Shown one piece after another: positions 27,284-29,595 of a stretch of 64,000 bases of DNA. The notes beneath the pieces are model-generated. The model was not told where the DNA came from, searched no databases, and saw only the letters and a list, made by a program, of their open reading frames with translations. The stretch spans positions 558,001 to 622,000 of the forward strand of contig JAJFJQ010000073.1 in assembly GCA_021773835.1 (NCBI GenBank). The letters are read 5' to 3'. A program made the position numbers and the translations under genes. The stretch comes from Gammaproteobacteria bacterium (GTDB taxonomy: Bacteria; Pseudomonadota; Gammaproteobacteria; Ga0077536). Each line of letters starts with the position of its first letter. Position 1 is the stretch's first letter.

Positions 27284-27300
27284 TGTCAACAAACTTTACA
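27284..27300 (+). promoter_or_regulatory. Candidate upstream activator site, copy 1 (TGTCAA type)
   Basis: TGTCAAC-AAA-CTTTACA, an imperfect inverted repeat. A matching site TGTCAAG-ATT-CTTTACA is found before the second PEP-CTERM gene. It lies about 205 bases before the -24 promoter element, a workable distance for a sigma-54 activator. Confidence 0.5.
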
Positions 27301-27420
27301 AGTTTTGTCAGCGATTTTTGACGATGAATCCCGGAGTTCTAAGACACAGCAGGACATTAGGAGAAGATTTGTGTACAAACTTGCTACGTATATCGTATTT
27401 TTACCCTTTTCCACTGAGAA

Positions 27421-27437
27421 TTCTTAGAAACTTTACA
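27421..27437 (+). promoter_or_regulatory. Candidate upstream activator site, copy 2 (TTCTTAG type)
   Basis: TTCTTAG-AAA-CTTTACA, about 70 bases before the -24 element. The longer pattern AATTCTTAGA-N4-TTTACA recurs before the second PEP-CTERM gene with nearly the same bases. Confidence 0.55.
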
Positions 27438-27488
27438 TCCCGCACCACTGCTTTGTGCAAGTAGTTGATAAACCAAAAAATAGTTGCT

Positions 27489-27504
27489 TGGCTTGATTCT
27501 TGCG
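27489..27504 (+). promoter_or_regulatory. Sigma-54 promoter of the first PEP-CTERM gene
   Basis: TGGCTTGATTCTTGCG: GG at 27490-27491 and GC at 27502-27503 are exactly ten bases apart, as sigma-54 requires, and the -12 part is TTGCG. The predicted start of transcription is about 24 bases before the ATG. Sigma-54 control of PEP-CTERM genes has been proposed for exosortase-containing bacteria. Confidence 0.75.
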
Positions 27505-27538
27505 CGAGGTCTTATACCTAATTTCCGAGGAGTTCACC

Positions 27539-28141
27539 ATGAGGGTTTCTAAGGGCAGGTCGTGCATAGGCCTTATAACGCTAGCATTAAGTCTGCTGGT
27601 TGCTATGCCGGCACAGGCGGTCATGGTGTATCAGACCACCTTGGACCTCAGTACACCGGTGGTGAATGTTGATTCAATCGATAAGATTGTCTACCGCTGG
27701 TCGACGACTGAAACCAGCGGGACGGTTGACCAATCCGAACTCGTTGATCTCGAAATGCAAATTTTCGCCAGCGGGGCTCTAGTCCATACTGATTCTGTCC
27801 TTGAGGACGGAACCGTGCTTTCCCCGGCTGGTATCACGCGAACCCTTGGTGATCTGTTTTGGCGCTTCGACTTAACGACAATGGTGTTGGCGCAGATGTC
27901 GAATGGCGTAGGCGATACACTCCGAGATGCGACAGACACGCAATATCGGATATCGGATGGTCTTTCATTACCTGCAGATTCCCGGGTCAATATACGTAAA
28001 ACAACGGACGGAGTACAAGACTATATTGTTAGAGAAATGCTCCTCACGCAAAGTACTAAACTAGTTCCGGAGCCCACAAGTCTAGCGCTAGTGGCGCTCG
28101 GTTTGGCGGGCCTCGGCTTTAGGCGGCGAAAAGTCGTGTAA
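27539..28141 (+). CDS. PEP-CTERM sorting domain protein (first)
   Basis: A 200-residue exported protein. A signal peptide (about residues 1-27, ending MPAQA) is followed by a beta-rich body without a recognised domain. The C-terminal sorting signal is PEPTSLALVALGLAGLGF followed by RRRKVV. PEP-CTERM proteins are cleaved by exosortase and linked to exopolysaccharide or the surface; no exosortase gene is in this window. The ATG lies after GAGGAGTTCACC. It is preceded by a sigma-54 promoter and followed by a hairpin terminator. Confidence 0.88.
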   Translation: MRVSKGRSCIGLITLALSLLVAMPAQAVMVYQTTLDLSTPVVNVDSIDKIVYRWSTTETSGTVDQSELVDLEMQIFASGALVHTDSVLEDGTVLSPAGITRTLGDLFWRFDLTTMVLAQMSNGVGDTLRDATDTQYRISDGLSLPADSRVNIRKTTDGVQDYIVREMLLTQSTKLVPEPTSLALVALGLAGLGFRRRKVV

Positions 28142-28169
28142 GCTCCTGCGCAAGCAAGTGCAACTGAAG

Positions 28170-28193
28170 CCCGCCTTGTGCGGGTTTTCTTTT
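28170..28193 (+). terminator. Rho-independent terminator of the first PEP-CTERM gene
   Basis: CCCGC (28170-28174), loop CTTGT, GCGGG (28180-28184), then TTTTCTTTT. The hairpin and U-tract are identical to the terminator after the second PEP-CTERM gene. Confidence 0.85.
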
Positions 28194-28230
28194 GGCCACT
28201 TGAATGAACAAGTTCAAATAGCCGCGGAAT

Positions 28231-28309
28231 ATTGCCGGACACCCATCAAATGTAATGAGCGAATATTTCGGGACATCCATAATATTTTATCGTCTAAACC
28301 ATTGATTAC
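28231..28309 (+). repeat. Degenerate GGGACA repeat block A
   Basis: Two units start with CCGGACACCCAT (28231) and TCGGGACATCCATAA (28268), followed by TCGTCTAAACCATTGATTA. The second unit and the CTAAACCATTGATTA tail recur at 29506-29595 with few changes, so these are copies of one family. Confidence 0.5.
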
Positions 28310-28466
28310 AAAACCTTACGCCGATATCGAATCGAGGCTGTCCTGGACCGTTCCTCCGATAGGATCGTGACTGTCCCAGACTCTCCCAGACTCTCAAGCA
28401 CCGGGCCGCCGACTCACTGCGGAGCTGTGCCGGGTGACGCAAAAACACTGAAAACGGCGTTCAAAA

Positions 28467-28490
28467 GCCATCATCCTGATAGATGATGGC
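28467..28490. repeat. Perfect 9-bp hairpin
   Basis: GCCATCATC (28467-28475) and GATGATGGC (28482-28490) around CTGATA. It has no T tract and lies far from both neighbouring genes. Function unknown. Confidence 0.4.
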
Positions 28491-28690
28491 CACCCAACCC
28501 ACGACCTCAACTAAATCCCGATGATCGATGACCAAAGACACAGGTTCAAGACGAGTTTTTCAACAGAATCAAACTGAAATCGGTCATCCAGATGAGGAAG
28601 CTGACGGTCCGATACCGACCTATTCAGCCTGGTTGCGATATCTAATACAAGTGAACGACCGATGACTCACGCGGTTTTGGCTGGGTGGAC

Positions 28691-28707
28691 TGTCAAGATT
28701 CTTTACA
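28691..28707 (+). promoter_or_regulatory. Candidate upstream activator site, copy 3 (TGTCAA type)
   Basis: TGTCAAG-ATT-CTTTACA, extending to the near-palindrome CTGTCAAG-N3-CTTTACAG. It matches the site at 27284 at 13 of the last 16 positions. Confidence 0.55.
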
Positions 28708-28733
28708 GACAGAACGCTCTGAAACCCAGCAAA

Positions 28734-28750
28734 TTCTTAGATTATTTACA
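28734..28750 (+). promoter_or_regulatory. Candidate upstream activator site, copy 4 (TTCTTAG type)
   Basis: TTCTTAG-ATT-ATTTACA, the counterpart of the site at 27421. It lies about 90 bases before the -24 element of the second PEP-CTERM promoter. Confidence 0.55.
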
Positions 28751-28825
28751 CAGCCACTTTTCTGGGTTGAGCCTCAATCTACGTAACTCATTGAGAATGG
28801 GTAATGTTTTCTGTTTTCGATGCAA

Positions 28826-28841
28826 TGGCATGGTTTTTGCA
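28826..28841 (+). promoter_or_regulatory. Sigma-54 promoter of the second PEP-CTERM gene
   Basis: TGGCATGGTTTTTGCA: GG (28827-28828) and GC (28839-28840) are ten bases apart and the flanks fit TGGCAC-N5-TTGCA almost fully. Transcription would start roughly 30 bases before the ATG. Confidence 0.82.
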
Positions 28842-28884: not shown

Positions 28885-29421
28885 ATGTTTAGGAAACAAC
28901 TTGCCGCTTTAACGCTGGCCCCAATCCTCGCCCTGATGTCATTCTCTACGCACGCCGTCTTAATGCTCGATGCTGGCTGGAATCTTGATGAGTGGTCGGG
29001 TGGTTCAACCGTATTTACTGACGATTCCTTGGACCCAGTTGCCGAAGGATACGATTTCACCTTGGTGTCGAATGCGATATTGACGATCACAGACTGTTGC
29101 GCAACAGGGGATACCTTTGACGTGTTCGACGGCGCTGCCTTACTCGGTTCGAGTGCGCTGTTGGCGGGCACTGCGTTTGGAGACGGTCTCGGAGAATTTC
29201 CCGCAGATTTTGATCCTTCTTTTGCCGACCCCGCTTTTCACGGCATTCAACTCGCACTTGGTCCTGGCTCTTATCAGTTGCGGATTCAGCTAACCGGAGG
29301 ACTAAGTTTAGGGGCCCTCGGCGTGCGACTCGATACTGCGGTTGTCCCAGAGCCCACCAGCCTCGCACTTCTCGGCCTAAGTTTAGCTGGCTTGGGTTAC
29401 AGTCGGAAAAGAAAAGCGTAA
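28885..29421 (+). CDS. PEP-CTERM sorting domain protein (second)
   Basis: A 178-residue exported protein. The signal peptide is MFRKQLAALTLAPILALMSF followed by STHA. The body includes a Cys pair DCCATGD and a beta-rich acidic region. The C-terminal signal is PEPTSLALLGLSLAGLGY followed by SRKRKA. The chosen ATG follows CGGAGCAGTTACAA and gives a proper signal peptide; the frame is open for 27 more codons upstream, through the promoter. The body does not resemble the first PEP-CTERM protein beyond the sorting signal. Confidence 0.88.
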   Translation: MFRKQLAALTLAPILALMSFSTHAVLMLDAGWNLDEWSGGSTVFTDDSLDPVAEGYDFTLVSNAILTITDCCATGDTFDVFDGAALLGSSALLAGTAFGDGLGEFPADFDPSFADPAFHGIQLALGPGSYQLRIQLTGGLSLGALGVRLDTAVVPEPTSLALLGLSLAGLGYSRKRKA

Positions 29422-29448
29422 GAACGTCTAGACGCTGGTGATGGAAAG

Positions 29449-29472
29449 CCCGCCTTGTGCGGGTTTTCTTTT
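29449..29472 (+). terminator. Rho-independent terminator of the second PEP-CTERM gene
   Basis: CCCGC (29449-29453), loop CTTGT, GCGGG (29459-29463), then TTTTCTTTT. Stem, loop and U-tract equal those at 28170-28193. Confidence 0.85.
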
Positions 29473-29505
29473 GCCGACAATATTTCTAGCAGAATCAGTA
29501 TGGGA

Positions 29506-29595
29506 GATATTTCGGGACACCCATAAAAAGCTAATCTTGGGACAGGCACATATTCTGGGGTACCCACAAAATAACATCATCTAAACCATTGATTA
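29506..29595 (+). repeat. Degenerate GGGACA repeat block B
   Basis: Units begin GATATTTCGGGACACCCATAA (29506), TTGGGACAGGCACA (about 29538) and TGGGGTACCCAC (about 29556), followed by TCATCTAAACCATTGATTA (29577-29595). It parallels block A, which also lies just after a PEP-CTERM terminator. Confidence 0.5.

Follow-up and report, generated by a model that had tools for sequence, protein, structure and literature searches.

In many environmental and floc-forming bacteria, surface and matrix proteins are sorted by PEP-CTERM/exosortase systems, and the activation of the corresponding genes has been little tested. The closest described promoter class is that of Haft et al. 2006 (PMC1569441), who, according to the accessible part of their text, found that 99 of 167 proteobacterial PEP-CTERM genes are preceded by a 17-nt motif ending in TTTACA (motif 1), which is sometimes repeated and is followed by a sigma-54 motif. 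The spacer had a mean of 62.8 nt (SD 10.6, range 32–92 nt), and the species profile of the motif was matched to PrsK, PrsR and PrsT. An in vitro DAP-chip study of 2011 on DVUA0057, a PrsR-type regulator of Desulfovibrio vulgaris, recorded enrichment of the five PEP-CTERM targets predicted for it (PMC3333781). The pepA gene of Aquincola tertiaricarbonis was reported in 2023 to be RpoN1-dependent, with a transcription start mapped at its -24/-12 element (PMC9850573). Sigma-54 polymerase needs the ATPase of an activator; NtrC-type activators bind upstream dyad sites, and IHF aids the DNA looping (PMC7175178).

The 64-kb window (i.e. the whole stretch of DNA analysed) belongs to a draft genome (6.14 Mb, 74 contigs), which was searched by pattern and by family. 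The window contains two PEP-CTERM genes on the + strand: gene 1 (27539–28141, 200 aa, likely start ATG 27539, tail VPEPTSLALVALGLAGLGFRRRKVV) and gene 2 (28885–29421, 178 aa, likely start ATG 28885, tail VPEPTSLALLGLSLAGLGYSRKRKA). Both products carry the C-terminal PEP-CTERM domain according to TIGR02595 (26.9 and 26.2 bits, cut-off 16) and PF07589; they score far below the cut-off of the PepA model and are not PepA orthologs. Four elements precede each gene on the + strand. For gene 1 these are a distal PrsR-type motif 1 (box A, 27284–27300, TGTCAACAAACTTTACA), a proximal variant of motif 1 (box B, 27421–27437, TTCTTAGAAACTTTACA, 68 bp to the T of TGG), an IHF-like site (27458–27470, CAAGTAGTTGATA versus YAANNNNTTGATW, 9/9 matches, 31 bp before TGG) and a putative sigma-54 -24/-12 element with GG-N10-GC spacing (27489–27504, TGGCTTGATTCTTGCG). 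The corresponding elements of gene 2 are box A (28691–28707, TGTCAAGATTCTTTACA), box B (28734–28750, TTCTTAGATTATTTACA, 92 bp to the T of TGG), an IHF-like site (28784–28796, TAACTCATTGAGA, 8/9 matches) and a GG-N10-GC -24/-12 element (28826–28841, TGGCATGGTTTTTGCA); here the IHF-like site is about one helical turn farther out than its usual position, at 42 bp before TGG. The window holds no A or B boxes beyond these two of each, with 0.004 A and 0.0006 B boxes expected by chance from a first-order model of its sequence. A preliminary description of this DNA had placed the four 17-bp boxes and the two -24/-12 elements correctly; it overlooked the two IHF-like sites and a pair of homologous 3′ flanks (see below). 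It had also presented the boxes as matched pairs, and the A-then-B order is indeed common to both genes, but the A-to-B spacing is unequal, box A lying 137 bp 5′ of box B for gene 1 and 43 bp 5′ of it for gene 2.

Both promoters resemble the class of Haft et al. in having a motif 1 that ends in TTTACA and a -24/-12 element before PEP-CTERM genes, and in belonging to a genome that carries both prsK and prsR. The most 3′ box is separated from the -24/-12 element by 51 nt (gene 1) or 75 nt (gene 2), inside the range given in the accessible part of that paper. The likeness to DVUA0057 lies in a PEP-CTERM-type response regulator with PEP-CTERM gene targets; binding was recorded there by DAP-chip, with no validated motif for that regulator group (PMC3333781), whereas here it is predicted. 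As with A. tertiaricarbonis pepA, a PEP-CTERM gene stands behind a -24/-12 element with a predicted enhancer upstream, although transcription of pepA was established experimentally and that of the window genes, which encode no PepA ortholog, is predicted. In both window promoters an IHF consensus is found between activator site and -24, and the arrangement of upstream activator sites, bending site and -24/-12 element is that of IHF-assisted sigma-54 promoters of the NtrC, NifA and PspF types (PMC7175178), with the differences that the activator here would be PrsR and that IHF binding is predicted. Given the Haft (as far as its accessible text goes), DVUA0057 and pepA precedents, the earlier proposal of PrsK/PrsR and sigma-54 control is a rediscovery: it is not new, and as far as sequence can tell it is correct for this genome.

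Genome-wide, the PEP-CTERM model gives 28 hits, 20 of them above cut-off. The 6.1 Mb contain 20 copies of box A (TGTCAAN5TTTACA), compared to none for a reversed-pattern control. Chance occurrence of the boxes was rejected, as a first-order model predicts 0.42 A and 0.06 B boxes in the genome where 20 and five are observed. Eighteen of the 20 A boxes are upstream of model-detected PEP-CTERM genes, while the remaining two precede PxP-transmembrane-Arg-tailed proteins missed by the model (1128 aa, ending PVPIPAAGWLFGIAIASLFARRGRWKGRR, and 223 aa, ending PIPLPAPVLLLTTALLTLCGASRRRAALPNS), which from their sequences look like PEP-CTERM variants. Box A is confined to PEP-CTERM or PEP-CTERM-like genes (20/20), and it is therefore not equally common elsewhere. 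Exact or near-exact boxes precede 15 of the 20 above-cut-off PEP-CTERM genes. A strict-pattern search of the class (369 genomes) returned few matches, because such a pattern misses diverged boxes. Paired boxes were not supported as a general feature of the promoter class, with a second near-perfect box in just 3/35 promoters from other species.

The regulator and exosortase genes are all in the genome: prsK (C42:8850–10967, 718.8 bits) with prsR directly downstream (C42:7510–8853, about 692.5–692.9 bits, cut-off 502.6), rpoN (487.6 bits) and two exosortase genes (209.5 and 161.9 bits). Together with the 20/20 box distribution, this supports at the sequence level the view that sigma-54 and PrsK/PrsR regulate these genes. 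An EpsB_2 sugar transferase gene is found near prsR/prsK, and ihfA (L055:935–1237, genome C42:19935–20237) follows pheT on the same contig, about 11 kb from prsR. Across the order, the strict patterns used show only a weak association between box A and the presence of PrsR (10/7/6/13, Fisher p 0.18); fragmented drafts and strict pattern matching blur the signal. As the association is not significant, box A was not retained as a clean marker of PrsR in these genomes.

The distance between proximal box and promoter, measured start-to-start to the T of TGG, is not free to vary. In 15 promoters of this genome it amounts to 68, 68, 68, 69, 69, 80, 83, 90, 90, 91, 92, 92, 92, 101 and 112 bp, and with periods of 9.5–12 bp allowed only 1 of 5000 random sets was equally phased (R=0.82). 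Promoters of relatives (n=14) are phased to a degree reached by 15 of 5000 random sets. A scan for box A, a gap of 46–76 nt and TGGCN7TTGC across approximately 85,000 species genomes yielded at least 80 loci, the matches listed including some related species. All 26 PEP-CTERM-linked proteobacterial promoters among the matches listed fall at 67–71 (9), 79–82 (10) or 90–92 bp (7) within a possible 63–93 bp, and none of 5000 random sets was equally phased, either for these 26 loci in other species or for all 59 proteobacterial loci among the matches listed. The 18 non-proteobacterial loci among the matches listed display no phasing (4901 of 5000 random sets as phased); these are presumably chance matches and provide an internal negative control. 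The best-fitting period is approximately 11 bp. Activator box and promoter thus share one face of the DNA helix, a layout rule absent from the literature searched; the spacer statistics of Haft et al. are compatible with phasing, which the accessible part of that text does not mention. For the distance between paired boxes, phasing is no more than suggestive (178 of 5000 for distances >90 bp) and is for that reason not claimed. The 137-bp A-to-B distance of window gene 1 corresponds to no whole number of turns, a point against the mechanism proposed below.

The spacers between activator box and promoter share a further element. The well-known IHF consensus was used for scoring, and most spacers contain a match to its reverse (YAANNNNTTGATW; YAAN4TTGATW) in a single orientation, usually located about 31 bp (30–34) before the TGG of the -24 element. 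A score of at least 7/9 at 29–35 bp was found in 11/15, 7/14, 18/26 (matches listed) and 6/9 promoters of four sets, compared to 1, 1, 2 (matches listed) and 1 in an equal window at 40–46 bp. The mean best score of the genome's own promoters is 8.00, versus 6.65 ± 0.16 in dinucleotide shuffles. Among the matches listed, 35/59 proteobacterial and 3/18 non-proteobacterial loci have the site (p 0.002), with some difference in spacer G+C (0.36 versus 0.44) between these same groups. The IHF-like position is fixed relative to the promoter, and the box-to-IHF distance changes in helical steps (37–38, 48–51, 58–59, 67 and 81 bp). A predicted DNA-bending site for IHF between activator box and promoter is the likely reading of these sequence data; a link between IHF and PEP-CTERM promoters was not found in the literature searched.

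Box B (TTCTTAGN4TTTACA) occurs in five exact copies in the genome, all before PEP-CTERM-type genes. All five occupy the in-phase proximal slot, at 68, 69, 69, 91 and 92 bp before TGG, and in four of the five promoters an A box (three exact, L007 with one mismatch) lies exactly 43 bp upstream of B, window gene 1 being the exception. A role of box B as a second activator site general to the promoter class was not supported: in 35 other genomes of the order it is absent, save for a single isolated match in G023, so that box B is a variant limited to this species within its order. Read most simply, box B would be a variant PrsR site peculiar to the species.

Combining these observations, we propose with good confidence the following mechanism. 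Sigma-54 RNA polymerase would transcribe both genes from their -24/-12 elements; this polymerase being unable to open DNA alone, the genes would remain off until PrsR is activated. The off state would end with phosphorylation of PrsR, which is an NtrC-type activator, by the kinase PrsK. A PrsR dimer is predicted to bind each 17-bp box, TGTMAA-N5-TTKACA being an imperfect dyad. Having two boxes in a promoter, box B presumably included, may aid assembly of the active PrsR oligomer. IHF bound between box and promoter would bend the spacer, allowing PrsR to reach the polymerase. If this contact requires the proximal box to be on a fixed helix face, the distance can shift only by about one turn at a time (68, 80, 91, 101, 112 bp). 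After export, the products would undergo processing by exosortase on the cell surface.

Besides PrsR, the genome encodes about 12 other NtrC-type activators, one of them GlrR-like and encoded 7 kb away from prsR, and box A is kept before PEP-CTERM genes in G035 (97% complete) and G027 (94%), for which no PrsR was detected at 1e-140 and no PrsK at 1e-30 (the boxed loci are L090, L087 and L099). These genomes may have draft gaps, or another activator may read their boxes. We nevertheless consider it improbable that a sigma-54 activator other than PrsR is responsible, even in part of the family: the motif profile matched PrsR across 13 proteobacterial genomes in the accessible part of Haft et al., the PrsR-type regulator of D. 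vulgaris pulled down predicted PEP-CTERM targets, and the PrsR of this genome scores as a clear equivalog (692.9 bits versus a cut-off of 502.6). A second regulator sharing the TTTACA half-site could be envisaged for box B, with the five A-B promoters forming a sub-regulon. TTCTTAG is invariant in five promoters whose sequences between and around the boxes are otherwise unrelated, intermediate forms with one mismatch are absent from the genome (versus 4 control matches), and the 43-bp distance to the A box is exact in four of five. We view this option as doubtful but worth keeping in mind, since B takes the in-phase slot that proximal A boxes hold in other promoters, which would fit binding of B by PrsR itself, and no candidate regulator was found.

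The spacer element might instead reflect intrinsic curvature, or the site of another nucleoid protein: the spacers are AT-rich, and the IHF-like sites are called by consensus matching, with about one third of promoters having no clear site. This appears rather unlikely, given that an asymmetric consensus is matched in one orientation and at one position, that scores are far above those of dinucleotide shuffles and neighbouring windows, and that ihfA is present (167.4 bits). A further rival explanation is that the boxes common to the two window genes are a mere remnant of tandem duplication of one gene. The 3′ flanks (28167–28308 and 29446–29595) are homologous, with 69.7% identity over 152 columns (E 2.5e-10). 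They include an intrinsic-terminator-like hairpin 3′ of gene 1 (28167–28191, + strand, AAGCCCGCCTTGTGCGGGTTTTCTT) and its near-identical copy 3′ of gene 2 (29446–29470, + strand, -16.9 kcal/mol, z -4.0). Owing to this homology, an old tandem duplication followed by divergence of the two genes is possible. The upstream regions outside the boxes are nevertheless unrelated (26% identity in register), and the same boxes precede at least 12 other PEP-CTERM genes on other contigs and occur in other species, a genome-wide distribution that already contradicts the remnant explanation and leaves it with very little probability. Transfer of the boxes with a recently duplicated promoter was likewise rejected, sequences between and around the boxes sharing 24–36% identity. 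The earlier statement that the protein bodies differ is confirmed, as genes 1 and 2 do not align outside the sorting signal; its corollary, that the shared control region is not just a recent gene duplication, holds for the protein bodies and upstream regions, whereas the 3′ flanks are about 70% identical. The latter also share short GGGACAYCCATAA-type repeats in addition to the hairpin, and no such repeats were seen near the other PEP-CTERM genes of the genome.

Three features go beyond the literature found: the helical phasing, the IHF-like site about 31 bp before -24, and the species-limited box B. The accessible part of Haft et al. mentions neither phasing, nor an IHF-like element, nor the TTCTTAG variant. 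We consider it reasonably probable that PrsR-controlled PEP-CTERM promoters across Proteobacteria follow a hitherto unreported three-part geometry, consisting of a fixed-face box that moves by about 11 bp at a time, an IHF site at about 31 bp before -24 and the -24/-12 element, with a diverged TTCTTAG box replacing the proximal PrsR box in five promoters here, possibly as a sub-regulon. A PrsR regulon in this genome combined with a strict geometric rule, i.e. helix face and IHF-like site, would allow sharper promoter finding.

Two individual loci are of further interest. The 1128-aa protein (L236:45–3428, genome C47:275444–278830) consists of NxxGxxAF repeats with a VPIPA-type tail and is encoded behind an A-B box promoter; as a member of the regulon, it is likely to be a sorted protein. 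Another PEP-CTERM gene (L002, genome C32:1548) is preceded by two A-type boxes and a -24 element without the GC of -12 (CGGCACAGAATATCC), and perhaps represents a decayed promoter.
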